This document shows positions 4,187-35,003 of a DNA stretch of 41,046 nucleotides, piece by piece. Position numbers and translations under genes: made by a program. Each line of letters starts with the position of its first letter. The stretch's first letter is position 1. The DNA is taken from NCBI GenBank assembly GCA_017389705.1, contig JAFPEE010000257.1, forward strand, positions 1-41,046. Direction: 5' to 3'. Source of the DNA: Prevotella sp. (GTDB lineage: Bacteria > Bacteroidota > Bacteroidia > Bacteroidales > Bacteroidaceae). The notes under the pieces were generated by a model. That model made no database searches. It was not told where the DNA came from and saw only the letters and a list, made by a program, of their open reading frames with translations.

Positions 4187-4195
4187 AGTCCTGTG

Positions 4196-4227
4196 CAAAG
4201 ATAGTTATTCTTTTTCAAACTACCAAC
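4196..4227 (-). promoter_or_regulatory. promoter of the M64 peptidase gene
   Basis: Minus-strand GTTG (4224-4227), a 20-nt spacer and TATCTTTG (4196-4203) resemble the consensus. The -7 box ends 9 nt before the chosen ATG, leaving a leader of only a few nucleotides. This excludes the upstream in-frame ATG at 4198. Confidence 0.65.
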
Positions 4228-4307: not shown

Positions 4308-5600
4308 TTATTTCATACCTTGTGTAGCAGGATATGCCTGCTTTGTCAACACATAGTAATATGTAGGATCTTCAACATCAGTAAGCTTAATCATAGTCGG
4401 GTTGCGAACATCGTTTGCCTCCATGTTATAAGTACCTGAGAGTGGTGAGATGAAGTAGCGGAAATAGTAAACGCCATCATCTGACTTACTAGCCCAATAG
4501 TAACTTGCATTACCTTGCTGTGCACTTGAACCAGCCCAACCTGTAAGTGTCAATTTGATCTGAGTATCGGACAGAGCCTCAGGAGCCATGTCAAAGCCAG
4601 ACCAGTAGTTACCACTTCTTACATAAAGATCACCGCTTGAGTAATAAGCGTAACCGATGGTCTCACCTTCTACCGCCAGATGTCCAGGAGCTGCATAGTC
4701 CCAGTATTCCTTCATCGCGTCACACATGTTGGCGTAACTGATATACCAGTTGCCAGTAAGGAATGCCTCGCTCAGCGGCATGACATAGCCTCTCATGACG
4801 GCTTCAGCATCATTGGTGGTAAACAGATAATCATCACCGCCTTTGTATGTGAAATCGGTAATCGTCCTACCAAGTACAGTGACAGGCTTATAGAGATGAT
4901 ATCCATCAGGTCTCAGGATGTAGGGAGCGTCAACGGTTACCAATTCGCCATCCTCAGTGGTGTAGGTGAATGTCAGCATGTGATATGAGGCGCTGACTTC
5001 AGCGACTTCGTCACCGACATTGAAGAAATATGAAGCAAAAGCCATATCAGACTCTGCCTGAGTTACCTTAGCAAGGTAAGAATCCCAATCGGTGTCTGCT
5101 TTAACCGGAGTCATGACAATCTTGGTACCATGCTTCTTGCCTGTCATCACAACACTGTCAGCCGTAGCCGAGATGATGCGGAACTCCAAGTCACCTTCCA
5201 TCCCCTTGCCTTTGTCACCGACTTCTAACTTGTTATCGGGGTCAGAGAAGAAATGGAAAACCTCGTTGAACTCGTCAAACGAGAGGACAACACCGCCACT
5301 TTGCTCCAACTTGTAATGGGAAGTGGCAGAATTTCCTGCTCCATAGACTTCATTGGCGACCTTCACATTGTTATCTTCGCCAAACTTGACAAACATATTG
5401 TAGCCACCGTAGTCTGTATTACCATAATACTCCATCAGCCAACCGTTGGCAGGAGCTGTCAATACGGCTTTGTAGTTCTTCAAAGCCTCCTGCATACGCA
5501 GGGCAGAAGACTTGTCGAATACATCGTCCACCTCGTTGCTACAAGATGTATATATTACTGAAAGAGCCAGTATCAATAGAATATTCAAAATCTTTTTCAT
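4308..5600 (-). CDS. DUF4302-type lipoprotein (operon A)
   Basis: The 430-residue product starts with a lipoprotein signal ending YTSC (Cys20). The segment after it, with EALKNYKAVLTAPANGWLME and the YGGYNMFVKFG stretch, is typical of the DUF4302 family, which occurs in Bacteroidetes next to susCD genes and HExxH lipoproteins. No catalytic motif is visible, so it is more likely a surface binding or accessory subunit than an enzyme. It begins 12 nt after the HExxH lipoprotein gene and is the last gene of operon A. Family assignment is from memory of sequence features. Confidence 0.85.
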   Translation of the reverse strand: MKKILNILLILALSVIYTSCSNEVDDVFDKSSALRMQEALKNYKAVLTAPANGWLMEYYGNTDYGGYNMFVKFGEDNNVKVANEVYGAGNSATSHYKLEQSGGVVLSFDEFNEVFHFFSDPDNKLEVGDKGKGMEGDLEFRIISATADSVVMTGKKHGTKIVMTPVKADTDWDSYLAKVTQAESDMAFASYFFNVGDEVAEVSASYHMLTFTYTTEDGELVTVDAPYILRPDGYHLYKPVTVLGRTITDFTYKGGDDYLFTTNDAEAVMRGYVMPLSEAFLTGNWYISYANMCDAMKEYWDYAAPGHLAVEGETIGYAYYSSGDLYVRSGNYWSGFDMAPEALSDTQIKLTLTGWAGSSAQQGNASYYWASKSDDGVYYFRYFISPLSGTYNMEANDVRNPTMIKLTDVEDPTYYYVLTKQAYPATQGMK

Positions 5601-5612
5601 ACGCTTGTAGTG

Positions 5613-6719
5613 TTATTTAAGGGTTTTCAAATCCAGGTTATATACATTCTCTGTACGACGGAGAACCTCATTGCGCAAATCGTCAAGGTTGATACCCCAA
5701 CTATCCTTCATGTAGTCTTTGACCATGTCCAGTTTCTGGATAATCATATTGTAGTAGGTGTCATCGTAGGTGTCAATCGTTTCCACTTCATACTCATAGG
5801 CATAATACAACTTGCCGTCAATCAGCTGCACAAGACGGTTGCCGTCCTGGTCATACAAGTAGTCCTTGATAATCCTATTGCCGTCGGCATCCAGTTTGTA
5901 AACAGGATTACCGTCTTTGTCAGTCTTTGTCGTTGAACCTGTCACAATACGTGAAGCATTCAGTATCTGGTTCCATACCTTGTCGGTGGAAGTCACGTAT
6001 GTTGAGAACACCTCTGCGAAGTCCTCGTTATACTCACCGCTTGCATAGCCTGTAACGAAACCTTCCTTCGGTGCATCGGCATCCTTTACGTTTACCCAGT
6101 CGCTGGTATGATAGTGACCGGCAGATATTTCACGGAAGTCAGTAGGATAATCCTTCGTTTGGGTTAGGATATGACAGAACTCATGGTGCATCGTGTGGAA
6201 GAACCAATGATTCAGGTCCATCGGAAGTGCATAGTGATCGCGGAAGGCATCCGTGGTGTTGACAAAGATATTGTCCACATCTATCTCGTTGACACGGAAC
6301 AAGGTTATCTTTACACCACTTTCAGCATATCCCAAGACGATACTCTCATTTGAGCTAAACTCAGGGGAACCCAAAAGTTGATACACCTTAGGTCCGTATT
6401 GCTTGATAAACTCCGGTCCAAAAACGGACTCGTAGGCTCCAATCCATAATTCCTTGACCAAAATGGCCAGTGCCTTTGCCTTTTCCGGGTCAGCAGGAAC
6501 GACATTATAGTAGTTGTCAGTCTCGCTATCTTGGTAGCGGTAGCGGAACTCGATATTATAAGGCAGTGTAAAATTTTTATAGAGCCATGTATCAAACTCA
6601 TTCTTGGGCTGCTCCTCAGTTTTGAAAATGCTCTTACTGGAAACATCGTCGCTCTTGCATGAGGTCACCAAGACTACCAGTGCCAACATGCTCAGTAGTG
6701 ATAATATTGTTTTTTTCAT
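5613..6719 (-). CDS. substrate-import-associated zinc metallohydrolase lipoprotein (operon A)
   Basis: The ATG at 6717-6719 begins a signal MKKTILSLLSMLALVVLVTSC with lipobox Cys21. The longer frame upstream overlaps susD and has no signal, so I rejected it. The 368-residue product has HHEFCHIL, giving HEFCH at residues 179-183, a zincin motif. A likely third zinc ligand lies in the segment with YNEDFAEVFSTYV. This arrangement matches the Bacteroidetes family of zinc metallohydrolase lipoproteins that co-occur with SusC/SusD. It lies between susD and the DUF4302 gene. Cleavage of proteins or peptides at the cell surface is plausible but inferred. Confidence 0.88.
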   Translation of the reverse strand: MKKTILSLLSMLALVVLVTSCKSDDVSSKSIFKTEEQPKNEFDTWLYKNFTLPYNIEFRYRYQDSETDNYYNVVPADPEKAKALAILVKELWIGAYESVFGPEFIKQYGPKVYQLLGSPEFSSNESIVLGYAESGVKITLFRVNEIDVDNIFVNTTDAFRDHYALPMDLNHWFFHTMHHEFCHILTQTKDYPTDFREISAGHYHTSDWVNVKDADAPKEGFVTGYASGEYNEDFAEVFSTYVTSTDKVWNQILNASRIVTGSTTKTDKDGNPVYKLDADGNRIIKDYLYDQDGNRLVQLIDGKLYYAYEYEVETIDTYDDTYYNMIIQKLDMVKDYMKDSWGINLDDLRNEVLRRTENVYNLDLKTLK

Positions 6720-6753
6720 AACTGTTCTCTGTTTGTTCGTTTGTATTATTCCT

Positions 6754-8379
6754 TTAGAAGCGTATTCCCCTTTCCTGTAATTCATCAGGGTCTTGAGCAG
6801 AAGTATTGGCATCCTCATAAACATTAGGTGCTATACCAGCCTCAATAGCATCCTGTGGAATTTGGAATGCACCTCGTGAATCACCAGCTTTGAACACAAT
6901 GGGATTTCCACCACTGATATTGTGACTGAATGCAATGCCATAGCGTTTCAAATCTTGGAAACGCAGACCTTGCTGCCATGTTTGCAGACGACGCATGTGT
7001 AATACCATTTGGATAAAGTTCTCCTGTGTTCCACTCTCAACAGTGAATCCTTGGGGCTGCAGGTGTTTTTTCGGTGTACGTTCTTTGGTAGTCGTGACAA
7101 CCTCTGGAGTATAATCTATCTTGTCAAAGGTTTTGTTAATCATTTCCTCTGTCAAGGTAGGACGCACACCCGTTCCGTATGTAGAAGCGCAGTGGCTGGT
7201 CACCCAATAGTTCATATCCTCAAGTGCCTTTGCGTAATTCTTTTGCAGGGTGTATGCCTCGGCACGCACCAGTAATGTCTCGTCAGCATTGAACACAACG
7301 TCGACAATGTAGGGTGTACCCGTATTGGCAACCTTGTCAGTTACGGCAAAGAACTCTACCATGTAAGGCATGTACACTGACTCATTGCTTCCGCCATAGA
7401 GATTGTGCGACATGTAGAGCGTGTTGTTAGTAGAACCAGAACCCCAAGGCATGCCAGGAGCACGAGTCAACTCTTGCAACCAGATATCATAGTGGGTAGC
7501 ATAGCGTCTCCAACTGGAAGAGTATTGTGCGCGACCAATCAACGAGTTTGCAGTTACCATTAAAAAGTTTGCAGGCTCTGCCGCAGCAACATAAGCGTTG
7601 TTGATGTCATCAACACCAGCCAGAGTCAGATACTGTGCATAGTTACGCAAAACGCCGAGTGGATTGCTGCCAATGGCGGCAGTGGCATACTGGATAGCTT
7701 TGTCGTACTTGTGGAAATAAAGATTGAAGCGGGCTGCGAAGGCATAGGCAGCCTTGCTGTTGAAGTGATACTTTGGTGATACCAGGTGAGCATCGTTCAG
7801 CAAAGGAAGTGCTTCTTCGATGTCTGCGTTGATATTCTCATACAACTCTTGCAATGTTCCACGCTCTGCCACACTTACGCCAGGAGCTTTCGGGTAAGGC
7901 AGTCCCACATATTTGTCTGCTTTGGTGGGATCATAAGCCATACAGAAAACATTGCTCATACGGAAGATGGCATAGGCACGGCACAGCAGAGCCTCTGCAC
8001 GACATCCGTTCAGACTTGCAGGATTGCCCTGTTCACCGATACTTGCCAGTGCCTGGTTGGCTGCAGCTGCTGCCATGTAGTGATAATTCCATATCCACTG
8101 GGTACTCTCCCAACTGGTGGTCAGTACAGGTTGCCAATTATAGATGTATGTCTGGTAGTCCTGTGCCGTGAACTGGGCACCATTGTCCTGCACATTGTCA
8201 GAGGCAAGTTCCATGACGTAGTCAGCAGAACGTCCGGGATAGGCGGATACCAGGAATTGCGCTACCTTCTTCTCTGTGTCTATTTCTGCACGATCATCAG
8301 GCAGTTTGTCCAAATAGTCGTTGCAGGAAGCCAGTCCCATGCTTAGCGCAATGATTGAAAATCCTATATATTTCTTCAT
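6754..8379 (-). CDS. SusD/RagB-family nutrient-binding lipoprotein (operon A)
   Basis: SusD-type lipoproteins form the lid of the SusC transporter and capture substrate at the outer surface. The 541-residue product has a lipoprotein signal with lipobox LASC (Cys19) followed by NDYLDKLPDD, the usual SusD N-terminus. It also has the family's helical TPR-like repeats and a conserved C-terminal segment with RRLQTWQQGLRFQDLKRYG. I preferred the ATG at 8377-8379 to the one at 8383-8385 because it begins a normal signal peptide. It begins 31 nt after susC and lies 34 nt before the metallohydrolase gene. Confidence 0.93.
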   Translation of the reverse strand: MKKYIGFSIIALSMGLASCNDYLDKLPDDRAEIDTEKKVAQFLVSAYPGRSADYVMELASDNVQDNGAQFTAQDYQTYIYNWQPVLTTSWESTQWIWNYHYMAAAAANQALASIGEQGNPASLNGCRAEALLCRAYAIFRMSNVFCMAYDPTKADKYVGLPYPKAPGVSVAERGTLQELYENINADIEEALPLLNDAHLVSPKYHFNSKAAYAFAARFNLYFHKYDKAIQYATAAIGSNPLGVLRNYAQYLTLAGVDDINNAYVAAAEPANFLMVTANSLIGRAQYSSSWRRYATHYDIWLQELTRAPGMPWGSGSTNNTLYMSHNLYGGSNESVYMPYMVEFFAVTDKVANTGTPYIVDVVFNADETLLVRAEAYTLQKNYAKALEDMNYWVTSHCASTYGTGVRPTLTEEMINKTFDKIDYTPEVVTTTKERTPKKHLQPQGFTVESGTQENFIQMVLHMRRLQTWQQGLRFQDLKRYGIAFSHNISGGNPIVFKAGDSRGAFQIPQDAIEAGIAPNVYEDANTSAQDPDELQERGIRF

Positions 8380-8410
8380 AATCATTTATTTTTTACTTTT
8401 TACTTATATA

Positions 8411-11400
8411 TTAAAGTCCAACACGCAGTGTGAAGGTAAACTGCTTAGGCATAGGTACGGCAACACCACCAGTGTTGAAGAACTCAGGATCCTGACCGTT
8501 CAGCTTGCTGTCTGAGTAAATCAGGAACAGATTGGTGGCCTGCAGTTTGGCACTCAGACTATTGAGGTGCAACGGAGCAATCCACTTCTTGGGGAAGTCA
8601 TAGCTCAGAGATATTTCCTTCATGCGGATGAAGTCACCCTTTGCCACACGTGCTGTAGACTTGTTGTAAGCATTGTAGGCATAAGACAAACGCGAGTCGT
8701 TCTGCAGCATGCGCAAGTCTGCAATAGCGGGAATATCTGTAAATTTCTCGTCACCAGCCATAGTCCAGCGGTTCTTGAACTCCTTGGGCATAGCGTCCAA
8801 ATCTGAGTAAGAAGCGGCGAACGACGGGTCAAGGCGAATTACATTGCCATATGAGTATGTGGCAAAAATGTTCAGTGTGAAGCCTTTGTATTTAAAGGTA
8901 TTACCCAACGAGCCAGTAACAGTCGGGTCTGTTGGACCTTCATAAATCAGATAATCTGTGTCGTATGACTGGAAATCCAAATCACTGGTGGTCAGGTCGC
9001 CGTTTGTATTGATGAAAGTGGGGATACCATTCTCATTCAGTCCCTTGAAATCGATAGAGAACAGGGATCGATAAGGATAGCCAGGCATGGTGAAACCACC
9101 ATTACTGATCATGCTCATGACACGTGTATGACTTTCCAGATCAGTTACCTTGGTCTTCACATGAGAGAAAATGAAGTCTGTGCTCCACTGGAAGTCCTTG
9201 TTGACGATATTCTTGGTAGAAATACTCAGTTCTTCACCATGTGAACGCATAGAAGCAACGTTGGCATAGTCGCGAAGCGTACCAGTGGTTCCGTTAAGTA
9301 CACGCGGACCAATCAAATCGTAGTTGTTACGCTTGTACCAGTCGAACTGCACATTAATACGGTTATTAAAGAAACCGAGGTCGATACCCAAGTTGAACTC
9401 ATGCTTCTTCTCATAGGTCAAATCGGGGTTGGCAAAATCATAGATTTCCAGTCCGGACTCCTTGACATTGGCGAATGGACGCCAAGGGTTATAACTCTGA
9501 ATGATAACCTGTGCGTTGTTGGTAGCAGGCTTGTCACCAGTCAGAGAGTAAGAGGCTTTCAGGGTGGCATGAGTCAGTACATTCTTGAAAGTATTGTGGA
9601 ACCATGGCTCCTCATGGGCATTCCATGCGCCAGATACGTTCCAGGTTGGCAACCAACGGGCACTGGTTTCCTTGCCCAAACGGTTAGAACCTTCGTAGCG
9701 AACAGTTCCATTGATAATATATCGTCCTTTATAAGAGTAAGTGGCTGTTCCGAAGAATGACACCTCACGCCCATAGCTATTAGACAGTCCATAGTAATCA
9801 GCATTCTGCTCACTTGACTGTTTGAAGTAGCGATAATCGTAGTTAGGCAGGAAGCCCATGTCATACTGCATACCTATACCTTCAAAGTGGCTGCGGTTAC
9901 GGTCTGTATTGTTAATCTCCATACCAGCGAACAGATTCACAATGTGTGTATCATTATTGAATGCATCGTTGTAGCTTCCGGTCAGTCGGAGACTCCAGTT
10001 ATTCATCTTATACTTTGTCTCATTATAGAAACCGCCATTAGGCAAGACGCTGATAGGCAGCGAGTTGGCATCGTCTGGGTCTGTGTATAGCCACGGGTTG
10101 GCGTCACGCATGGTAGCATCGTCCATGGCACGGAACGACATGGCCTGATTAGAGTTCTCTCGTATACTGTGGGCTTGAGTGGTTCCAGAGTATTTGTATG
10201 ATGCCAAAGCAGCTAATTCCACCTGACGGATAGGCTTGTATTTCAACTCAGCTTGGATTTTCATGTCTACCACATCCAGATCCATATAGTTGTTTGCCAA
10301 CTCGTTGTGGATGTTAAACGGAGCATAGTTACGTACATAGAATGCATTGGGGTCCAGTGTACGTGAACTGTTCAGTGCATAGCTGTAAGGGTTGATGTCG
10401 AAGTCGCGACTGGTAGCACCGGTCACTGCATTGTTGCTCTGGCTTGTAGTACCGGGTGCCTTCTGCTTACGATAACTTGCATTACCAATCAAGTTTAATG
10501 AAACTTTCTTGGAAATGTTGTAGTTGGCATTGATATTGGTTGTGAATCGCTCCACCTTTGAAGCTTCAGTCCATCCTGGGTCATTCATGTAGCTGAACGA
10601 TGTGTAGTACTGGGCCTTCTCTGTACCTGTAGACATCGAAATAGAATGGTTGTGCATGATAGAGCTTGAGAACAGCTCATCGAACCAGTCCGTATTACGC
10701 ATCTCAGCCTCTCTCAGATAGGCATTTCTTGCCTCTGGGGTGTTTGCCAAGGCATAAGTTCCGGTGATGGGATCGTAGGTGTTCAGCAGATGGTACATCT
10801 TTCCGTAAACACCACTGCTGGCATAGCGATAGGTGCGACCAAAAGAAATCAAACCGTTGTTTTCCAATTCCTGATAGATACCCATCTGTTCCTGTGAGTT
10901 CATGATGTTGAAGTTAGAATAAGAGGGCTTCAGACGCATGGTGAACTCACCAGTATAGTTGATGCGGGTCTGTCCCTGCTTACCTTTCTTCGTTGTTACG
11001 ACAATCACACCAGCCATGGCGCGGGCACCATAGATGGAGGTAGCAGAACCGTCCTTCAGAATCTGGAACGACTCAATATCGTCTGCGTTCAGACCTGCAA
11101 TGGCCGATGAAATCAGGGTTTCGGCATCACCCGAAGACAAGGCATCGGCATCAACCTCAGTCACATCCTCCATGATTACACCATCAACAACCCACAGGGG
11201 CTTTGAAGAACCATAGATAGACGTAGCACCACGGACACGAATCTTAGGAGCTGTACCGAAGGTGCCTGATACGTTCTGAACGGACACACCAGCTACGCGA
11301 CCTTCCAGCGAACGTGAAATATCAGCCACACCGTCCAGCTTGGCTTTTTCAGCATCCAGCTTTGACGTTGCACCCGTAAACAGGCGCTTGTCCATCTTCT

Positions 11401-11719
11401 GCATACCCGTTACGACAACCTCCTCAATCTCTGCACTGTTACGCAGTGTGACGGTCATGCCGTTCTTGGGCGTTACGGTTTCGGTCTCCATACCGATGTA
11501 GCTTACTTGGATTTTCTTGCCCGAAGGCACCGAAATGGTAAAGTGACCATTGGCATCGGTCACGGTACCGGTCTTCTGTCCCTGCACCAAGACGGTAGCA
11601 CCGATAATCGGCTGGTTGTCTTCGGCAGAGATGACGGTTCCTGTGACTCTTGTCTGGGCCAGAGCCATTCCTACACTCAGGAAAAGGCAGGCCAAAAACA
11701 TCGTTAGTCTTTTTTCCAT
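8411..11719 (-). CDS. SusC/RagA-family TonB-linked outer-membrane transporter (operon A)
   Basis: The 1102-residue product is a SusC-type TonB-dependent channel. A signal peptide is cleaved after ALA (residue 21). A CarboxypepD_reg-like domain follows (about 23-95), then the plug, with EVVVTG, WVVDGVI and the SIYGARAMAGVIVVTTKKGK stretch, then a beta barrel to the C-terminus. It imports an unknown large nutrient with SusD. The first 60 codons resemble operon B susC, but the noncoding leader is more alike than the coding part. No TAnnTTTG promoter faces this gene from inside the inverted repeat, so it is probably silent in this orientation. Confidence 0.95.
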   Translation of the reverse strand: MEKRLTMFLACLFLSVGMALAQTRVTGTVISAEDNQPIIGATVLVQGQKTGTVTDANGHFTISVPSGKKIQVSYIGMETETVTPKNGMTVTLRNSAEIEEVVVTGMQKMDKRLFTGATSKLDAEKAKLDGVADISRSLEGRVAGVSVQNVSGTFGTAPKIRVRGATSIYGSSKPLWVVDGVIMEDVTEVDADALSSGDAETLISSAIAGLNADDIESFQILKDGSATSIYGARAMAGVIVVTTKKGKQGQTRINYTGEFTMRLKPSYSNFNIMNSQEQMGIYQELENNGLISFGRTYRYASSGVYGKMYHLLNTYDPITGTYALANTPEARNAYLREAEMRNTDWFDELFSSSIMHNHSISMSTGTEKAQYYTSFSYMNDPGWTEASKVERFTTNINANYNISKKVSLNLIGNASYRKQKAPGTTSQSNNAVTGATSRDFDINPYSYALNSSRTLDPNAFYVRNYAPFNIHNELANNYMDLDVVDMKIQAELKYKPIRQVELAALASYKYSGTTQAHSIRENSNQAMSFRAMDDATMRDANPWLYTDPDDANSLPISVLPNGGFYNETKYKMNNWSLRLTGSYNDAFNNDTHIVNLFAGMEINNTDRNRSHFEGIGMQYDMGFLPNYDYRYFKQSSEQNADYYGLSNSYGREVSFFGTATYSYKGRYIINGTVRYEGSNRLGKETSARWLPTWNVSGAWNAHEEPWFHNTFKNVLTHATLKASYSLTGDKPATNNAQVIIQSYNPWRPFANVKESGLEIYDFANPDLTYEKKHEFNLGIDLGFFNNRINVQFDWYKRNNYDLIGPRVLNGTTGTLRDYANVASMRSHGEELSISTKNIVNKDFQWSTDFIFSHVKTKVTDLESHTRVMSMISNGGFTMPGYPYRSLFSIDFKGLNENGIPTFINTNGDLTTSDLDFQSYDTDYLIYEGPTDPTVTGSLGNTFKYKGFTLNIFATYSYGNVIRLDPSFAASYSDLDAMPKEFKNRWTMAGDEKFTDIPAIADLRMLQNDSRLSYAYNAYNKSTARVAKGDFIRMKEISLSYDFPKKWIAPLHLNSLSAKLQATNLFLIYSDSKLNGQDPEFFNTGGVAVPMPKQFTFTLRVGL

Positions 11720-11839
11720 AAATCTCTCGTTTTGTTATTATTGAATAAATTAAATTATGTTTGCGTACATTATTATAAAAGAGCGTTTAGGCTCACGTCT
11801 GTTTTTTTATGTTAAATGTCACCTCTGCGGGAGAGGTGT
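11717..11839 (-). repeat. inverted repeat, copy 1 (leader of operon A susC)
   Basis: This 123-nt segment from the start codon outward is repeated in inverted orientation at 13516-13641. By hand alignment there are 126 columns with 6 substitutions and 3 single-base gaps, about 93 per cent identity. Uninterrupted identical blocks of about 29-30 nt lie next to the start codon, and the inner edge is an identical 19-nt block (11821-11839). Inside the coding sequence identity drops. Confidence 0.95.
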
Positions 11840-11847
11840 TTTTTTTT
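11820..11847 (+). terminator. hairpin with T run, possible insulator of the recombinase gene
   Basis: ACCTCT and AGAGGT around GCGGG (11821-11837), extended by a C-G pair, form a 7-bp stem followed by nine T residues (11839-11847) on the plus strand. It could stop antisense transcription from the operon A side before the recombinase promoter. Copy 2 has the same hairpin without the T run. Confidence 0.5.
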
Positions 11848-11853
11848 ATTGTA

Positions 11854-11861
11854 TATCTTTG
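11854..11861 (+). promoter_or_regulatory. probable promoter of the recombinase gene
   Basis: TATCTTTG matches the -7 consensus and lies 27 nt upstream of the recombinase ATG. No clear TTTG stands at -33, where the DNA is the hairpin and T run, so the promoter may be weak. Transcription runs toward operon B in this orientation. Confidence 0.5.
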
Positions 11862-11888
11862 CCCAAGTAATCACTAAAACAATATCCT

Positions 11889-12851
11889 ATGATTAAATTG
11901 TCTATCCATTTTACTTTCAGTCTTTTCGGAAGAAATAGGCAAACGCGTAAAAGCAAAGGAAAGCTGGATTTCTGCCAGGCTGCTCTTAACAGTATCGAAT
12001 CGTTGGTTGGGATAAGGGCCAAAAGTACCATTGACAACTATCAGACGGCGTTGCGCTCATTCAGTAGTTACACAAAACGCCCTTTGGCAATAGAAGATAT
12101 AAGCCCACAACTGATGGAAGGCTATCAACGATGGCTTACAGAAAAAGGTATTTCGCTGAATACCATTTCCTGCTACATGCGTTCTCTGCGGTCGCTTATC
12201 AACAAGATACAGCCGGAGGCTGACAGCCAAAGGCTCTTTAACAACGTCTTTACGGGGAAAGAGCGCACAGAGAAGCGATCCCTTTCGATAGAGGACGTCA
12301 GCCGTCTGCGACAACTCACCCTGCCTAGTCAATCCTCCCTGTCGTTTGCCCGCGACCTGTTCCTTTTCAGCTTTTATGCCCTCGGGATGCCTTTTGTTGA
12401 CATCGCCCATTTGCGAGAAACACAAATAAAGAATGGTTATATCGACTATAGACGACACAAGACGGGACAACGGGTTTGCGTCAAGCTGGAACCTCCCATG
12501 TTGAGGATTATCAACCGCTACCATGTAGCCGGCAGTCCCTATGTTTTTCCAATCCTCAACGATGGTGACGGGATGGGTATGGGAAAGGGGTATGAAGCAG
12601 GCCGTGCACGTTACAACCATCATCTCAGGCACTTGGGAAAACTTGCGAACGTCCAGCGCAAGTTGACCTCATACGTCGCGCGCCACACATGGGCCAGTAC
12701 GGCCTATCACTCCAACGTCAGCCTGCCAGTCATCTCCAAGGCCCTCGGACACAGCTCTCCCAACACCACTCAAGTCTACCTGCAAGCGATAGATGACCAT
12801 AGTATTGAGGCTGCAAACCGTATGCTGATAGCGCATCTGATGCGTGTTTGA
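11889..12851 (+). CDS. tyrosine recombinase, probable invertase of the susC switch
   Basis: The 320-residue product has an N-terminal core-binding domain (about 28-110) and a C-terminal catalytic domain (about 130-305). Visible active-site residues are Lys191, Arg265 in YVARHTW, His288 in LGHSS and the nucleophile Tyr297 in TTQVYL. The position of the first conserved arginine is occupied by proline in LGMPFVD (Pro168), and the histidine of the HxxR box is Tyr262. Loss of the first arginine is also known in the CTnDOT integrase, so activity is not excluded. It lies alone between inverted repeats that flank two divergent susC genes, which points to local promoter inversion rather than integration. 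The frame is intact. Confidence 0.9.
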   Translation: MIKLSIHFTFSLFGRNRQTRKSKGKLDFCQAALNSIESLVGIRAKSTIDNYQTALRSFSSYTKRPLAIEDISPQLMEGYQRWLTEKGISLNTISCYMRSLRSLINKIQPEADSQRLFNNVFTGKERTEKRSLSIEDVSRLRQLTLPSQSSLSFARDLFLFSFYALGMPFVDIAHLRETQIKNGYIDYRRHKTGQRVCVKLEPPMLRIINRYHVAGSPYVFPILNDGDGMGMGKGYEAGRARYNHHLRHLGKLANVQRKLTSYVARHTWASTAYHSNVSLPVISKALGHSSPNTTQVYLQAIDDHSIEAANRMLIAHLMRV

Positions 12852-13056
12852 TAGGTTTCTTGAATGTCTCGTAGACGTATTTATCTGATAATTTCTGTTT
12901 CTAAAAGTAGTGCTATATTTATGCATACATGCCTACATTTTCTTTTTAATTACTTGTTATACAAATAAATATACAATGTATACAGGTGGTGTATGTATAT
13001 TCATCTATACACGCTTTTTCTCAATAGAAATCAATCGGTACATGAGTGGGAGTTTA

Positions 13057-13122
13057 ATGCCGAGTGACTGGTGGTTTGGTGCCGAGAAACTATGACTTTG
13101 TTACCGAGAAACTCAAAAGGCT
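13057..13122 (+). repeat. three 22-nt-phased repeats with core CCGAGAAACT
   Basis: The core CCGAG(AA/TG)ACT occurs at 13060-13069, 13082-13091 and 13104-13113, each exactly 22 nt apart. A weaker unit may precede at 13035. Units two and three share ten identical core bases. The spacing is about two helical turns, which would place bound proteins on one face. The same core, TACCGAGAAAC, recurs in the array at 23004. Confidence 0.7.
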
Positions 13123-13157
13123 GTTTCTTGTGTCAGTTTTGTTGAAGTATCTTGAAA

Positions 13158-13200
13158 ATAATGTATGCTTATGCATCCTTATGCATGCAGCATACATTAT
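13158..13200. repeat. 12-bp perfect inverted repeat with ATGCAT-rich loop
   Basis: ATAATGTATGCT (13158-13169) and AGCATACATTAT (13189-13200) are exact inverted copies around a 19-nt centre with two TATGCAT motifs and a TGCATGCA palindrome. There is no T run, so a protein-binding site or cruciform is more likely than a terminator. Confidence 0.7.
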
Positions 13201-13476
13201 GCAAATAATTGTATATTAATGTATTAAGAGAATAGTGTAGAGATGTAAGTAAAATTTGGGACTTCCTATAGATTTATTTTTGAAGGTTCCACACATCGTG
13301 CCTTTGGCATGCTGTGCCTTGAGCTGTTGACGCTTCTGTGGGTCGTCCTTTAACAAAATGCAAACTTTTTAGCAAAATATCACATAAAAAGGGTAGTGGA
13401 GGGGCTCTTTTGTTAATTTCTTGCACTAAAATGTGCATTTTTTATAAATTTATTCGTTTTTTAGAAAAGTAAGTGC

Positions 13477-13484
13477 TATCTTTG
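13477..13484 (+). promoter_or_regulatory. promoter of operon B, on the invertible side
   Basis: TATCTTTG matches the -7 consensus. The expected -33 position has TTCG, an imperfect match. A start near 13489-13490 would give a leader of about 150 nt before the susC ATG. The box lies inside the inverted repeats, so it would move to operon A if the segment flipped. Confidence 0.65.
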
Positions 13485-13515
13485 CACGGACTTTTGGATG
13501 TGCGTTGGCATGTCC

Positions 13516-13641
13516 ACACCTCTCCCGCAGAGGTAAAATTTAACATAAAAAAACAAAGTGTGAGCCTAAGCGCTCTTTTTTATAATAATGTACGCAAACA
13601 TAATTTAATTAATTCAATAATAACAAAACGAGAGATTTATG
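13516..13641 (+). repeat. inverted repeat, copy 2 (leader of operon B susC)
   Basis: This 126-nt segment ends at the susC start codon and is the inverted partner of 11717-11839. Its inner edge (13516-13534) is the identical 19-nt element with arms ACCTCT/AGAGGT and core CCCGC. It contains no TAnnTTTG box itself, so transcription must enter from the invertible segment. Confidence 0.95.
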
Positions 13642-16600
13642 AAAGAAAGATTAACAATGCTTCTGGCCTGTCTTTTCCTCATGGTAGGAATGGCTATGGC
13701 CCAGACGAAAGTTAACGGTACCGTAACGTCTCAGGAAGACGGTCAGCCGGTTATCGGTGCTTCCGTTCTTGTTGTGGGAACGAGTGTCGGTACTGTAACG
13801 GATGCTAATGGTCATTTCTCGCTGACAGTTCCTGCTGGCAAGAAGACACTTCGTATTACTTATGTGGGTATGGAGCCCATTGAAGTAAGTGCCCGTCCTA
13901 ACATGCGTATCATGCTTACCAGTGACCAGAAGGCCCTTGATGAGGTGATTGTCGTTGCATATGGTACGGCAAAGAAATCGTCGTTCACAGGTTCTGCTGC
14001 CGCTATCGGTGGTGAGAAGATTACCTCACGTCCTGTGACCAACGTAACCAAGGCCCTCGACGGTCAGGTAACCGGTGTGATGACTACCAGTGGTAGTGGT
14101 CAGCCTGGTTCTGGTTCAAGCGTCGTTATCCGTGGCTTCGGTTCAATCAATGCCAGCAACAATCCCCTGTATGTGGTTGACGGTGTTCCCTACGGTGGTA
14201 GCATTAGCGCTATCAACCCTCAGGATATCGAGTCAATGACCGTGCTGAAGGATGCTTCTGCTTCTGCTCTGTATGGTGCCCGTGCCGCCAATGGCGTGGT
14301 CATCATCACAACCAAGAAGGGTAAGGAAGGTCGTCCTCAGGTACAGTTCCACAACACCGTGGGTTGGTCATGGCGTGGTGTCGACAAGTACGAGACCGTC
14401 AGTCAGCAAGACTTCGTTCAGTTGAGCTTCGAGTCGCTGCGTAACAGCTACCAGTATGGTAGTGGCTACAGCCGTGAGGATGCTACAATGCTTGCTATTG
14501 GTGACCTGGGTACTACGCTGGGTGGCAGCTCTAATCCTGAGCAGTACAACCCCTTCAAGAACTATACTTGGTCTACTATCATTGATCCTGCTACTGGCAA
14601 GATTCGTCCTGACGCTGTGTCAGCATACGATGACCAGTGGTACGACGGCATCTACAACAAGGGTGCCCTGCGTCACGAGCACACCCTGTCACTCAATGGT
14701 GGTTCTGACCGCACCAACTATATGCTGTCTCTGGGTTATGTTGACGAGAATGGTATTCTGATAAACACTGGCTTCCAGCGTTACAGTGCACGTGCCAATG
14801 TAGACTCTCAGGTTACTGACTGGTTCAAGACTGGTTTGAACACCAACTTGGCTTACACGAAGTCTACCTATAATCAGTATAGTGACACTCAGACCTCTAA
14901 CCCCTGGTACACCGCTCAGTTCATGGGTCCTATCTATCCTACCTATCTGAAGGATGCTGAGGGTAAGGATGTGCTGGATGCCAATGGCGAGCGCGTTTAC
15001 GACTATGGTGAGACTGGTCGTCCCGTAGCTAACGATTTCAACTCTCTGGGAGACCTGTCACTCGATAAGTCGTTCTCTAACAACGACAATGCCAGTGCAC
15101 GTGCCTACATGACCTTCGGTTCTGACAAGGAGTCGTTCGGTTGGGCACAGGGTCTGAAGCTCAACTTCAACCTGGGTATTGACTATATCAACTCTTCTAC
15201 CACTGAGACTTCTAACAAGTATCATGGTAATGCCAAGAACGCTCTGGGTCGTGTATACAAGTATGGAGAGCGCTATCAGACCTATACCTTCGGTCAGCAG
15301 CTCACTTGGAACCGCAAGTTCGGCGACCACACCATTGGCGCCCTGCTGGGTCACGAGTACTATGAGTACAAGTACAGTTACCTGTATGCTGCCAAGGCTA
15401 ACATCGTCGACGGTATCGACGAGTTGCGCCCTGCTGCAACACTGTATGACGCAGACTCTTATTCTAACAAGCATGCCATTGAGTCTTGGCTGGGCCGTGT
15501 ACAGTATAACTATAAGGACAAGTACTACTTCGACGCTTCTCTGCGTTCTGATGGTAGCTCACGTTTCCACAAGGACAACCGTTGGGGTACGTTCTGGTCA
15601 TTCGGTGCCAACTGGCGTGTTTCTGCCGAGGAGTTCATGAAGGACGTGAAGTGGGTGAGCAACCTGTCGCTGAAGGCTTCTTACGGTGAGAACGGTAACG
15701 AGGCACTGGACAGCTACTACGCTTGGCAGAATCTCTACTCACTGGGTTATCCTAACGCCAACCGTATCGGCGGCTTCGTTTCTACCCTGGAGAACAAGGA
15801 TATCTCTTGGGAGAAGAACGGTATGCTGAACATCGGTCTGGAGGGTGCGCTGTTTGACAGCCGCCTGCGCTTCAGCATTGAGTACTTCAGCAAGAAGACC
15901 AAGGACATGCTGCTGAACTACCCGATGGCTCTGTCAACCGGTTTCACTGGTTACGATGCTAACGTTGGTAACATGCGCAACTGGGGTTGGGAGTTCATGC
16001 TGTCAGGTACAGTGCTGAAGACCAAGGACATTGTTTGGAACATGACCTGGATGGGTACTGCTCAGAAAAACGAGGTGCAGAAGCTGACCGGTGAGACCGA
16101 CCAGATTGCCAGTGGTAACTATATTATCAAGGAGGGCTATCCCCTCTACACCTTCTACATGCCTCGTTCTGCAGGTGTTGACCCCGCAACCGGTAAGCAG
16201 CTCTACTGGGCTTACGACGACGTAGACAACTACCAGTTGGATGCTGAGGGCAATCCTGTTATCGGTGAAGACGGCAACCCCATTGTCGAGAGCACTACTC
16301 GTAACGAGTACATCACTACCGACTACAGCAAGGCTTCTGCAAGCCGTTACTTCGAGGGCGACCGTATTCCTGACCTCTATGGCAGCATCGGTACCGACCT
16401 GAAGTTGTTCGACTGCATCGACCTCTCAATCCTGACTACCTATTCTATCGGTGGTAAGATCTTAGACTCACGCTATACAGCATCCATGATGAACCTGTAC
16501 TATGGTAACACTTGGAACTCGAACATCCTGCGCCGCTGGCAGAATCCTGGTGATATCACTGACATTCCTCGTGTAGAGGTTGCATCTAAGGAGATTACCA

Positions 16601-16848
16601 CCAGCAACTATCTGGTCAATGCCTCTTACTTCGCTATCAAGAACATCACGCTGGGTTACACACTGCCCAAGCGCTTTGCCCGCAAAGCTTATCTTGAGAG
16701 CGTACGTCTCTATGCTTCGTTCGATAACGTTGCTGTATTCAGTCACCTGAAGGGTATGGATCCTCAGTATAACCTGCATGGTGTCGGTACAAACTATTCT
16801 TACGTGGCCAACAAGAACTTTACTATAGGTCTTGACATTAACTTCTAA
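13639..16848 (+). CDS. SusC/RagA-family TonB-linked outer-membrane transporter (operon B)
   Basis: The 1069-residue product has a signal peptide cleaved after AMA (residue 21) and a CarboxypepD_reg-like domain (about 23-95). The plug follows, with DEVIVVAYGT, YVVDGVPYGG and ALYGARAANGVVIITTKKGKEG. The barrel ends in a C-terminal Phe, as usual for outer-membrane barrels. Codon use is strongly biased toward CGT, GGT and AAC, as expected of a highly expressed gene. It pairs with the susD 17 nt downstream. It is related to, but clearly diverged from, the operon A transporter, so a different substrate is likely. In this orientation it has the only visible outward promoter. Confidence 0.95.
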   Translation: MKERLTMLLACLFLMVGMAMAQTKVNGTVTSQEDGQPVIGASVLVVGTSVGTVTDANGHFSLTVPAGKKTLRITYVGMEPIEVSARPNMRIMLTSDQKALDEVIVVAYGTAKKSSFTGSAAAIGGEKITSRPVTNVTKALDGQVTGVMTTSGSGQPGSGSSVVIRGFGSINASNNPLYVVDGVPYGGSISAINPQDIESMTVLKDASASALYGARAANGVVIITTKKGKEGRPQVQFHNTVGWSWRGVDKYETVSQQDFVQLSFESLRNSYQYGSGYSREDATMLAIGDLGTTLGGSSNPEQYNPFKNYTWSTIIDPATGKIRPDAVSAYDDQWYDGIYNKGALRHEHTLSLNGGSDRTNYMLSLGYVDENGILINTGFQRYSARANVDSQVTDWFKTGLNTNLAYTKSTYNQYSDTQTSNPWYTAQFMGPIYPTYLKDAEGKDVLDANGERVYDYGETGRPVANDFNSLGDLSLDKSFSNNDNASARAYMTFGSDKESFGWAQGLKLNFNLGIDYINSSTTETSNKYHGNAKNALGRVYKYGERYQTYTFGQQLTWNRKFGDHTIGALLGHEYYEYKYSYLYAAKANIVDGIDELRPAATLYDADSYSNKHAIESWLGRVQYNYKDKYYFDASLRSDGSSRFHKDNRWGTFWSFGANWRVSAEEFMKDVKWVSNLSLKASYGENGNEALDSYYAWQNLYSLGYPNANRIGGFVSTLENKDISWEKNGMLNIGLEGALFDSRLRFSIEYFSKKTKDMLLNYPMALSTGFTGYDANVGNMRNWGWEFMLSGTVLKTKDIVWNMTWMGTAQKNEVQKLTGETDQIASGNYIIKEGYPLYTFYMPRSAGVDPATGKQLYWAYDDVDNYQLDAEGNPVIGEDGNPIVESTTRNEYITTDYSKASASRYFEGDRIPDLYGSIGTDLKLFDCIDLSILTTYSIGGKILDSRYTASMMNLYYGNTWNSNILRRWQNPGDITDIPRVEVASKEITTSNYLVNASYFAIKNITLGYTLPKRFARKAYLESVRLYASFDNVAVFSHLKGMDPQYNLHGVGTNYSYVANKNFTIGLDINF

Positions 16849-16865
16849 AAGAAAGGATTACTGTG

Positions 16866-18434
16866 ATGAAAAATATATTTAAATATCTCGTTATCGGTGC
16901 AGCTATTACTACGCTGACCACCGCATGCAGCGACCAGCTGGAGACATCGCCTACTACCTCTGTATCAGGTCAGACGATGACAGCAAGCAATGATGCTGCA
17001 ATGATTGCCCTGAACGGTATCTACCGCTCTATGTACACTTCCGGCTGGTCTACGACGGGTAACACCCACCAGTGCTTCGGTATTTCTGCATATAATCTCT
17101 GCGCTGACGTCATGGGTGACGACCATATCATGGCTGCACAGGGTTCTGGTTGGTTCTGGTTCGACGCAGCCTACAATGTGAAGGCCCGTTATACCAGTGG
17201 TGCTTGGCGTTCTTACGACCTGTGGTATGCAGGCTTTACTTGGATTGCCAATGCCAACTACTTGATTGCAATGGATACAGAAGAGGAGATTACAGACGTT
17301 GACCGTCTCTATATCCTCGGACAGGCTTACGGCGTTCGTGCATATAGCTACTGGATGCTGGCGCAGTACTTCGCTCGTACCTATAAGGGACATGAGAGCG
17401 ACCCCTGTGTACCTATCTATAATGAGCCCACAACAGCTTCCACCACAGGTCAGCCCCGTGCTACTAACGAGCAGGTTTACCAGCAGATGAGCGCCGACAT
17501 TGCCAAGGCTGTTGAGTACCTGTCAAAGAGTCTGAATACTACTTTGGAGAAGGATAAGAGCTTTATCACTTATCCTGTGGCTCTGGGTCTGCAGGCTCGT
17601 ATCGCCCTGACCATGGAGAACTGGGACCTGGCTGCTACCGCTGCCGAGGCTGCCATCAACCTGAAGCAGCACAGCATCCAGCCCGTACAGGCTTCTGCTT
17701 TCAAGGCTAATGCCTCTAACTTCATCAACACCTATAGCGCAGGTAACGTGATGTGGGGTGCCAACATTATTGCTGACCAGTCTGGTATCTATGCCTCTCT
17801 GTTTGCTCACATGGACGCAGTGGCTTCTATGTATGCCGGTTACGACCGTGCTCCTAAGAAGATCAACTCTGTTACCTACAGCTTGATGAGCGAGACCGAC
17901 AGCCGCCGTTGCTGGTGGAATCCCGAAGACGAGAATAACCCCTATCAGCAGGAGAAGTTCCACTTCAGCGATATTCAGACCTATCTGGGTGACTACATCT
18001 GGATGCGTATCGAGGAGATGTACCTCATTGCTGCTGAGGCGGAGTGTATGAAGGGCAACGAAGCTGCAGCACAGCAGTATCTGAACACGATGGTTCAGAC
18101 CCGCGACCCGAACTACAACTGCACCAAGACCGGTACTAGTCTTGGTAAGCTGACCAGCGAGCGCACCGGTTCGCTGCGTGAGGCCATCATTGACCAGCGT
18201 CGTATTGAGCTCTGGGGTGAGTACGGACGTCTGTACGATATCCGTCGTCTGCGTCAGGGCTTCAAGCGCACTACAGCTGAGGGCTGGCCCAATGGTTTGC
18301 TGATTCCTAAGATGTCTACTGACGATCCTGAGAGCTATCCTTGGGTGCTGACTATTCCTAAGGCAGAGTTCGACGGTAACAAGAACATGGACGAGTCAAC
18401 TGACCAGAACCCCACTGGCAATTATCCTGATTAA
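16866..18434 (+). CDS. SusD/RagB-family nutrient-binding lipoprotein (operon B)
   Basis: The 522-residue product has a lipoprotein signal with lipobox TTAC (Cys21) and SDQLETSPTTSVSG, the usual SusD start. The helical core is followed by the conserved end with LREAIIDQRRIELWGEYGRLYDIRRLRQG, typical of RagB/SusD. I use the ATG at 16866, because the codon at 16863 is GTG. It should sit on the operon B SusC as a substrate-capturing lid. Codon use matches the highly biased susC upstream. Confidence 0.93.
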   Translation: MKNIFKYLVIGAAITTLTTACSDQLETSPTTSVSGQTMTASNDAAMIALNGIYRSMYTSGWSTTGNTHQCFGISAYNLCADVMGDDHIMAAQGSGWFWFDAAYNVKARYTSGAWRSYDLWYAGFTWIANANYLIAMDTEEEITDVDRLYILGQAYGVRAYSYWMLAQYFARTYKGHESDPCVPIYNEPTTASTTGQPRATNEQVYQQMSADIAKAVEYLSKSLNTTLEKDKSFITYPVALGLQARIALTMENWDLAATAAEAAINLKQHSIQPVQASAFKANASNFINTYSAGNVMWGANIIADQSGIYASLFAHMDAVASMYAGYDRAPKKINSVTYSLMSETDSRRCWWNPEDENNPYQQEKFHFSDIQTYLGDYIWMRIEEMYLIAAEAECMKGNEAAAQQYLNTMVQTRDPNYNCTKTGTSLGKLTSERTGSLREAIIDQRRIELWGEYGRLYDIRRLRQGFKRTTAEGWPNGLLIPKMSTDDPESYPWVLTIPKAEFDGNKNMDESTDQNPTGNYPD

Positions 18435-18473: not shown

Positions 18474-20351
18474 ATGAAAATCAATAAATATTTTTTAGGT
18501 CTTGCCGTTGCCATTATGGGAGGTCTTACCTCTTGTAATACTGATGTGGAAGGTGAATACTATCATACCGGTCTGGACAATGTGTCCTTTGATGTCGCTT
18601 CAAAGGCGTTGTCGGTACCTGTTGAGCAGTCTACAGCTACTATTCCCGTCGTGGTGACTCGCGGCAATGTGGCAGCAGCCTATGCTGCCAAGTATGAGGC
18701 TACAGCCAGCGCTGCAGGTATCTTCAGCGACGATGGCAATGGTGTTGTCAACTTCGAGGCCGGCCAGGGTACAGCAACCATCAATGTGAAGGCTGCCAAC
18801 CTGGAGAAAGAGGTTCCCTATACTTATACACTGAAGCTGAGCGAAGCTGACATCGCTACTGCTGATACTATTACCAAGTCTCAGATCTCTACTATCACTA
18901 TCACAGTACAGCGTGAGGGTGACTGGACAGAGTGGAAGAAGTGGAACTCAACAGGTACTGCTGACTACTACTATAGTGGATTTTTCTTCAGCGGTGACGA
19001 TCCCGATCTGCCCTTCCTGTATCGCCAGAGCGTGACTTCTCCGAACAATTACCAGCTGAAGGTTCAGAAATGGGGAAATGGTGTAGAGCTCATCATGAAC
19101 TATGATTCTTCAACAGGTGAAGTATACGTTCCTGAGACCTTTACCGGTTATGTTCACTCAACGTATGGTAATATTTATATTGCTGACTTCACAAATTATA
19201 GTGCTCAGGCACCTAAGGGCTATTTCGACACCCAGAAGGGTATCATCGCATTGTCAGTCTACTACTACGATGCTGAGGGTCCATGGAATGCTGGTTACGA
19301 GTATCTCTATATTGACGGATATGTACGTGCTGACTACACGATTAGCTCTCTCACCTATGCCGGTATTTTCACCGATCCACAGCAGAATGTATTTGCCGTT
19401 GGTGCTTTGGAGCTTGCTGCCGATGCCAAGAATGTGAAGGCTGTAGTTGTCAGCGCCGATGCTGACGCCGAAGCTGTGGCTGACGCTATCGCTGCCGGTG
19501 AGTTGGAGGCTACTGACGTAGAGGCTGGTAACATCTATGTTCCTATTGCTGAGGGTCTGACAGGCAAGCTTCAGATGGTAGTGGTTTCTCTTGACGCAGA
19601 GGGAACTGTCGCTTCTATTGCTTCGGCAGCCTTCGAGTACTACGGTGGTGGTGCTAATCCCTGGAAGTCGTTGGGTATCGGTTACTTTACCGACAACCTG
19701 CTGACAAGTTTCTTCGGACCTGATGAGAACACAGCCTACGATCCACAGACCTATGAAGTTGAGATTCTGGAGAATAGCGACGAGCCTGGTTTGTACCGTC
19801 TGGTCAATGCCTTCCAGGGAGCTGCCGAATACATGGGTTACAGCGCATACTACACACCTACTGATATTGAGGTGAATGCTACTGTTGCTGATGGTGTTTA
19901 CATCGAGGCTCAGCTGACAGGTTTGTCTACTTATGCAACTGGTACCTATGGTGGCTATGCTCTGCAGAGCTACGATTTTGCAACATTATACCAGTATGGT
20001 TACTTCGGATGGTTAGAGGATGGAGTGATGACATTCCCAGTATTCTCGGTAAAAGATAAAGAGACAGGAGAAGTTAAGTATACCTATCAAGGTCTAGTCA
20101 CTACACCAGACGCCAAGAACTATTATTCTGGTATTAATCCGACAGCTGAGACTCAGCTGAAGATTGTGCTGCCCACCGCTGCTGCTAGTGTGAAGGCTGC
20201 TGCCAGAAGAAGTGCTAATGCTACAGCTTTTGCTAACCGTCTGAACAGCTATGCTGTGAAGGGGCATGAGGTTGTTAAGCATGACAAGGCTGAAATGCTG
20301 AAACTTGCTTCGAAGAAGGTTAAGAAGCAGAAATTCCAGAAGGGTTTCTAA
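18474..20351 (+). CDS. large surface lipoprotein of unknown function (operon B)
   Basis: The 625-residue product has a lipoprotein signal with lipobox LTSC (Cys21). Residues of about 30-135 resemble a Calx-beta or similar beta-sandwich (FDVASKALSVPVEQSTATIPVVV, then GTATINVKAANLE). The middle is rich in Tyr, Gly and Asp, like surface substrate-binding proteins of SusE/SusF type. An alanine- and acid-rich stretch lies near residues 310-380. The last 50 residues are unusually basic, with many Lys and Arg. No catalytic motif is visible. It follows susD by 39 nt and a terminator follows it, so it is the third and last gene of operon B. A binding role is inferred from position. Confidence 0.85.
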   Translation: MKINKYFLGLAVAIMGGLTSCNTDVEGEYYHTGLDNVSFDVASKALSVPVEQSTATIPVVVTRGNVAAAYAAKYEATASAAGIFSDDGNGVVNFEAGQGTATINVKAANLEKEVPYTYTLKLSEADIATADTITKSQISTITITVQREGDWTEWKKWNSTGTADYYYSGFFFSGDDPDLPFLYRQSVTSPNNYQLKVQKWGNGVELIMNYDSSTGEVYVPETFTGYVHSTYGNIYIADFTNYSAQAPKGYFDTQKGIIALSVYYYDAEGPWNAGYEYLYIDGYVRADYTISSLTYAGIFTDPQQNVFAVGALELAADAKNVKAVVVSADADAEAVADAIAAGELEATDVEAGNIYVPIAEGLTGKLQMVVVSLDAEGTVASIASAAFEYYGGGANPWKSLGIGYFTDNLLTSFFGPDENTAYDPQTYEVEILENSDEPGLYRLVNAFQGAAEYMGYSAYYTPTDIEVNATVADGVYIEAQLTGLSTYATGTYGGYALQSYDFATLYQYGYFGWLEDGVMTFPVFSVKDKETGEVKYTYQGLVTTPDAKNYYSGINPTAETQLKIVLPTAAASVKAAARRSANATAFANRLNSYAVKGHEVVKHDKAEMLKLASKKVKKQKFQKGF

Positions 20352-20404: not shown

Positions 20405-20435
20405 TTTGCCATTTTGAAATTTCTCTTTACCTTTG
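20405..20435 (+). promoter_or_regulatory. promoter of the first M6 peptidase gene
   Basis: TTTG (20405-20408), a 19-nt spacer and TACCTTTG (20428-20435) match the Bacteroidetes consensus well. The promoter follows the operon B terminator directly, so this gene is transcribed separately from operon B and independently of the switch. Confidence 0.8.
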
Positions 20436-20458
20436 CGCCAAGAAAAGATTTTGGTGAC

Positions 20459-34960: not shown

Positions 34961-35003
34961 ATCTGTCAATCTTCAATTTTCAGTTTTCAGTGTTTATTCT
35001 TTG

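Follow-up and report, generated by a model that had tools for sequence, protein, structure and literature searches.

The window analyzed here, the whole of a 41,046-nucleotide (nt) contig (JAFPEE010000257.1, our contig C51) of a Prevotella sp. genome, contains two complete SusC/SusD import operons, A and B, whose susC genes are divergently oriented and separated by a gap that contains one tyrosine recombinase gene, and we consider it highly likely that this gap holds a self-contained, two-way invertible promoter serving both operons. In the proposed mechanism, the recombinase encoded on the segment would act on two inverted 17-base-pair (bp) cores and invert the 1.7 kb between them. Because the segment holds one outward promoter, operon B would be driven in the present orientation and operon A after inversion; the operon at the other end would retain its leader and lack a promoter of the Bacteroidetes type, and the cell would alternate between the two import operons. 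Inversion within a population and exclusive transcription are what we infer from the sequence, as are the role of the recombinase in the inversion, its reversibility within one population, the silence of the OFF operon, and the substrate.

Anatomy of the predicted switch

The first-pass annotation had placed the switch at 11717–13641; these coordinates correctly delimit the gap from susC to susC, but the part predicted to move is only the stretch between the two cores (Table 1). The core, ACCTCTGCGGGAGAGGT, is a 17-bp palindrome present twice in the window, in inverted orientation. In the source genome (3.51 Mb in 265 contigs, 85.8% complete), these are the only sites with at most one mismatch; three more sites resemble the core with three mismatches. 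No third core was found there at up to two mismatches, which argues against a global recombinase with many targets.

Inverted similarity around the segment is extensive: a 40-nt inverted repeat (11800–11839/13516–13555) is 95% complementary, a 270-nt repeat (11514–11783/13575–13844; 79%) extends into both susC genes, and the longest exact inverted match is 33 nt, as compared with a maximum of 13 in 500 first-order resamples, the type of control also used for promoters. As had been noted before, the leaders are inverted copies of each other (114 of 127 columns with our boundaries, 117 of 126 in the first-pass annotation), and ORF and Pfam calls together with a promoter scan confirmed that one recombinase gene and one outward promoter lie inside the flanked segment. 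Two features by which an invertible promoter is recognized are present: inverted repeats enclose the promoter, and a gene for a site-specific recombinase lies nearby. The promoter ends 33 nt inside the right core, and no further outward promoter of the Bacteroidetes type was found near the left core or in either leader of the window.

On the + strand, the left core and the T run following it (11820–11838) resemble a terminator hairpin. The core is unlikely to be a general hairpin of SusC leaders, as 14 of 16 related SusC leaders located away from a switch recombinase lack it under the pattern applied (four of these 16 come from the divergent pairs of genomes G228 and G006, discussed below); by eye, the leaders of loci L225 and L226 hold degenerate look-alikes.

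Table 1. Coordinates of the predicted switch and of the two operons in the window
Feature	Position	Strand	Basis or remark
DUF4302 protein, operon A	4308..5600	-	
Zinc metallopeptidase lipoprotein, operon A	5613..6824	-	Peptidase_Mx1, TIGR04549
SusD-like lipoprotein, operon A	6754..8385	-	Pfam
SusC/RagA-type TonB-dependent transporter, operon A (predicted OFF)	8411..11719	-	
Leader of operon A, fixed, outside the segment	11720..11820	-	No outward promoter
Left core ACCTCTGCGGGAGAGGT, predicted crossover site beside operon A	11821..11837	+	Palindromic 17-bp match
Predicted invertible segment, 1680 bp between cores	11838..13517		Inferred from core positions
-7-like box before the recombinase gene	11854..11861	+	Its -33 position lies inside the left core
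Tyrosine recombinase, 320 amino acids (aa)	11889..12851	+	Pfam PF13102/PF00589; Xer-like in PDB; alignment
Outward promoter TTCG-N20-TATCTTTG	13453..13484	+	Bacteroidetes-type; now reading into operon B
Right core, inverted copy of left, predicted crossover site beside operon B	13518..13534	-	
Leader of operon B, fixed, outside the segment	13535..13638	+	Near-identical inverted copy of leader A
SusC/RagA-type transporter, operon B (predicted ON)	13639..16848	+	
SusD-like lipoprotein, operon B	16863..18434	+	Pfam
625-aa protein, operon B	18474..20351	+	No Pfam match at E ≤ 0.001
Peptidase_M6 (immune inhibitor A type), operon B	20414..22927	+	

Recurrence, orientation and partners across the genus

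The recombinase was searched against the genomes of 60 relatives, 15 of which gave a match at E ≤ 1e-30, and against 398 genomes of the genus, 118 of which gave one at E ≤ 1e-45 (the source genome is counted in both); from the latter matches, only the best were fetched for reading of their neighborhoods. The comparison set comprises a single genome per species. A total of 59 neighborhoods, the window included, were read, mostly those of best matches, and some of them are cut by contig ends (e.g., L042, L088, L096, L114, and L124). The close pairs L101/L103 (genomes G176 and G154) and L106/L107 (G319 and G075) were counted as separate loci, L037 and L126 are one locus, and L040 and L112 are near-copies. 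Elsewhere in the order, none of 343 other genomes gave a match at E ≤ 1e-65. One single-contig genome (G024) has 14 relatives of the recombinase at E ≤ 1e-30.

The divergent SusC–recombinase–SusC layout was found in 27 of the 59 neighborhoods, from 27 genomes (26 besides that of the window). Palindromic inverted cores with at most one mismatch are present in 20 of these 27 loci, and the core spacer, which mostly differs between loci, agrees within a locus, as strand exchange would require; a common spacer is found in the window and L087, and within each of the close pairs. An inverted match was found in 23 loci (looser in three), and within 160 nt of the segment ends, 21 of these carry an outward consensus promoter at a single end. 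This promoter lies on the 3′ side of the recombinase in 18 loci and on the 5′ side in three, and in 19 of the 21 it stands 16–43 nt inside the segment end, while resampled sequence yields such a promoter in 0–10% per side. The fixed leaders are without an outward consensus promoter in 22 of the 23 loci; the right leaders of L039 and L110 were left out of this test because their start codons are called upstream of the core. Of the four loci in which no core was found, where up to 240 nt was considered, L095 has no promoter, and in the other three a promoter stands on the 3′ side alone.

Furthermore, residues K191, R265, H288, and Y297 of the recombinase, which we take to be the catalytic Lys, Arg II, the His, and the nucleophilic Tyr, are invariant in an alignment of all 27 switch recombinases. 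The positions of the canonical Arg I and first His hold, by eye, other residues (M/P and Y262), a departure that occurs in Bacteroidetes enzymes. An NCBIfam scan of the recombinase gave no specific invertase model, and Xer and integrase families below cut-off only. On a tree of 73 recombinases (L052, L112, and L126 omitted; 35 rows without a label), the switch label requires three changes as compared with 9.7 in shuffles, none of 500 shuffles being as low. Recombinase relatives at E ≤ 1e-45 are also found in two sister genera (82 of 119 and 43 of 61 genomes). In the 17 neighborhoods read there, the window's SusC has no match among the nearest three ORFs per side, and short core pairs, 209–333 bp apart, stand beside the recombinase relatives in seven. 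This small inverton form also occurs in MN60 and HUN156 (149 bp) and, within the genus, in L042 and L121. Given the recombinase tree and these small core pairs at relatives, the two-operon form probably derived from an ordinary inverton.

The -33 position of the -7-like box that precedes the recombinase gene lies within the core in seven of 14 loci examined, including L039, where a second box has its -33 position outside the core, and L117, where the box is off consensus. Such proximity to the core makes self-repression by the recombinase possible, but since no such box was seen in the other seven loci, autoregulation remains an idea. Additional ORFs of 355–685 aa lie beside the recombinase, between the susC genes, in L038, L087, L089, L097, and L105. 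Two susC genes appear disrupted or misassembled: the right one of L101, called well downstream of the usual start region, and that of L224, which consists of two overlapping ORFs.

Upon comparing the SusC genes all against all, we found the flipped state that the first-pass annotation had predicted for related genomes, in this case between species. L105 and L117 (genomes G255 and G282) share both operons in swapped places. Identity is 82.6% over 4997 bp for one operon and 84.4% over 4774 bp for the other, and each runs inverted with respect to the segment, itself collinear at 68.6%. Both loci have the promoter on the 3′ side, so that the operon predicted to be ON is not the same in the two genomes. 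The recombinases of L101 and L103 are 96% identical; these loci also have the same core and share one operon (89.0% over 4802 bp) in inverted orientation, with the inverted block ending 2 nt beyond the core in both. In two pairs of relatives, the inverted homology stops within about 25 nt of the cores. Moreover, relative to the recombinase, the A transporter (≥70% identical) is a 5′ neighbor in three cases (the window, L038, and L106) and a 3′ neighbor in three others (L089, L095, and L091); because the promoter of L091 is on the 5′ side, A is predicted to be OFF there too.

The search for the A susC gene, in which four genomes were unscored, identified a copy with 95% DNA identity in G106. 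The two flanks of this locus align with the window (87.9% over 3334 bp; 75.0% over 1593 bp), and its A operon is inverted relative to the window (91.5% over 7557 bp), in the order promoter region, identical core, A leader, A operon, which is the predicted A-ON junction. No switch-type recombinase was found in G106 (the best match, on another contig, is 40% identical), and the 30 genomes that gave a B match at E ≤ 1e-100 do not include it; its susC consists of two overlapping ORFs, broken or misassembled. From its sequence, this locus looks like an A-ON junction left without its enzyme. A B-type operon with core and promoter is found in G321, which has no recombinase match at E ≤ 1e-45. Scans for a flipped copy from the same species returned none: two loci were recovered from genome contigs, both with a small ordinary inverton, and nothing from viral contigs.

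That related switches are flanked by different partner operons in different species was unexpected. Across six genomes, the A transporter is paired with six distinct partners, and the highest identity among these partners is 35% over more than 1000 aa, or 38% over a 258-aa stretch. L106 and L107 share the right operon (97.9% over 7863 bp) and the segment (92.3%) and have different left operons; their similarity on the left stops about 215 bp inside susC, and 243 bp at 96% recurs on the far side. Leader identity averages 0.85 within loci and 0.62 between loci, the within-locus value exceeding every between-locus value in 15 of 22 loci (five of the 27 were omitted for miscalled start codons, as were comparisons between the near-copies L106 and L107). 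By eye, the A leader of the window is more like the window's B leader than like the A leader of G106. Judging from these similarities, the leaders seem to have been homogenized after capture. We put forward, tentatively and as somewhat less than probable, that the switch is also an exchange slot: whole SusCD–peptidase operons would be swapped across species around a conserved recombinase–promoter core, by way of shared leader and signal-peptide sequence that is later homogenized, so that evolution would pick the pair and inversion the member.

Alternative explanations

Several observations weigh against a self-contained switch of this kind. The -33 element of the window's promoter is TTCG rather than TTTG. 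Outward promoters are present at both ends of L093 and L097 (weak in the latter), L104 carries one in a fixed leader, the inverted core was not found in four of the 27 loci (L038, L095, L099, and L115), of which L095 also lacks a consensus promoter, and L094, L108, and L113 have only a looser inverted match. In L040/L112, a SusC operon occupies just one side of the recombinase and an inverted partner of the core is missing, and divergent SusC pairs without a switch recombinase, each with its own -7 box, occur in G228 (L226) and G006 (L233). With respect to orientation, the other partner operons of L101 and L103 differ, and a 1755-bp piece beyond their shared operon aligns, unlike that operon, in the direction of the segment; this pair has therefore undergone more than simple inversion. 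The recombinases of L105 and L117 are only 64% identical and those of the six A-transporter genomes 41–57%, so that in these cases the segment may have been replaced by one in the opposite orientation, and no species was found in both states among genomes that represent one species each.

The divergent pairs of G228 and G006, together with the single orientation in the source assembly, are what could be expected if there were no inversion at all and the window held a stranded integrase gene and two divergent operons whose leaders had been duplicated. However, this explanation, which we consider very improbable, conflicts with the opposite orientations in relatives, the one-end promoter, the matched cores, and the clustering of switch recombinases on the tree. 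The same recombinase-free pairs would also suit a small mobile element that ends at the inverted cores, with orientation differences reflecting separate insertions, as would the additional ORFs in five loci and recombinases that, in several pairs of loci, diverge far more than the flanking operons. Yet the nearly identical recombinases of L101 and L103 share a core and stand in opposite orientation, and the near-constant distance of the promoter from the core in 19 of 21 loci suits a promoter switch; we therefore hold separate insertions to be quite doubtful. Most inversions might instead arise by homologous recombination of the long inverted leaders and signal-peptide regions, leaving the recombinase a secondary part; this reading gains from the likeness of leaders within loci and from the inverted homology that reaches into susC. 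It does not explain why palindromic cores with matching spacers are kept within 20 of 27 loci, why the four catalytic residues are invariant, or why the inverted block of L101/L103 stops at the core, and we judge it improbable. Finally, the promoter could invert while the other operon is still expressed from its own regulated promoter, making the segment a modulator rather than an either/or switch. SusCD operons are often under dedicated regulators, and the fixed leader of L104 has an outward promoter, but the fixed leaders of the other 22 loci tested have none; by contrast, all 16 related SusC leaders away from switches have a -7 box 53–232 nt before the start codon (only the -7 element was scored). 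Some weight must be given to a modulator, although it remains unlikely. The reciprocal either/or switch between two import systems that was originally proposed is supported by the opposite orientations between species and by the one-end promoter in 21 of 23 loci.

Operon cargo and relation to known systems

Both transporters score well above the cut-off of the SusC/RagA model TIGR04056 (680 and 805 bits; cut-off 368.25), and on both sides the SusC/RagA gene is followed by a SusD-like gene, the arrangement that defines the operon pair. The nearest PDB match of SusC B is RagA (E 2.2e-116); those of SusC A are 8ypu/8ypt, with RagA among the weaker ones. As both operons hold a metallopeptidase gene, both may possibly serve protein or peptide uptake. 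A scan of 71 of the 86 ORFs listed downstream of the switches identified Peptidase_C10 (12), Mx1 (7), DUF4302 (6), and M6 (2); the 19 families reported at E ≤ 1e-5 include neither a glycoside hydrolase nor a polysaccharide lyase. So many peptidases downstream of the switches were unexpected.

An M64 gene (2525–4198) probably belongs to the flank, outside operon A, since homology to G106 splits between the two. Beyond operon B lies a second M6 peptidase gene (23199–24953, - strand). Its relative in G106 comes after operon A and is oppositely oriented, and G228 has an M6-type peptidase gene between its divergent susC genes. Farther along the window, 33386–34969 encodes a response regulator fused to a PglZ domain, which resembles PorX of type IX secretion.

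Our comparison with the literature draws on extracts of PMC12632263, PMC4747536, PMC10939037, PMC11892184, PMC11852207, PMC8493755, PMC11868660, PMC12548429, and PMC12118408. Consistent with the first-pass annotation, promoter inversion and SusC switching are known in Bacteroides from the B. fragilis systems described in two of these extracts (PMC4747536, PMC11852207). As described there, the B. fragilis Tsr0667 system likewise switches SusC/SusD operons through DNA inversion by a tyrosine recombinase, but there, three shufflon-type clusters and nine further regions are under a single master enzyme (PMC4747536, PMC11852207). The window locus, in contrast, has its own enzyme inside the segment and two sites, with no third found in the genome; its two cores at ≤1 mismatch, in a genome that is 85.8% complete, differ from a Tsr0667-type shufflon, with its more than two sites and remote targets. 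The inversion work on Tsr0667 is reportedly that of Nakayama-Imaohji (2009), and its published site motif is said to be AGTYYYN4GDACT; this motif is absent from the segment and its sole match in the window is at 40425–40439.

B. fragilis BF2766/Tsr19, according to the extract, is also a tyrosine recombinase that inverts a local promoter, one with a TAnnTTTG -7 box, but it acts on a distant promoter as well and provides ON/OFF control of one operon (PMC4747536). Bacteroidales capsule invertons similarly have palindromic repeats beside genes for tyrosine-type invertases, as far as the extract describes them (PMC12118408). The small invertons beside recombinase relatives resemble the window in having a related recombinase and palindromic cores of the same 17-bp type; their cores, however, are 149–372 bp apart and are found next to the recombinase gene or at one of its ends, whereas those of the window are 1.7 kb apart, enclose the enzyme, and serve two operons. 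A further likeness is to the sap system of Campylobacter fetus, in which a promoter moves between two surface-protein cassettes that face opposite ways and have 5′ regions in common, although that system is RecA-linked and concerns S-layer genes rather than import operons. Varying surface layer genes are named for C. fetus in the extract of PMC11852207.

The first-pass annotation had suggested that one moving promoter serving two whole operons may be new. We recognized no description of this arrangement in the literature searched, which did not cover the main B. fragilis SusC/SusD inversion paper or the 2004 genome paper, so that the two-operon form cannot be called absent from print; it is, moreover, a variant of known Bacteroides SusC/SusD inversions. 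What sets it apart from Bacteroides SusC/SusD phase variation is that enzyme, promoter, and both sites form one unit for two complete operons, a unit present in 27 or more genomes of a single large genus. The arrangement predicts exclusive expression of one importer per pair, and the cargo suggests that peptidase-linked outer-membrane importers are among those switched. One may speculate that such switching serves phage or immune evasion or a division of labor. The differing partners may also point to a route by which surface operons move between species and, if the switch is indeed an exchange slot, the genus would possess a modular system of paired, mutually exclusive protein-scavenging importers.

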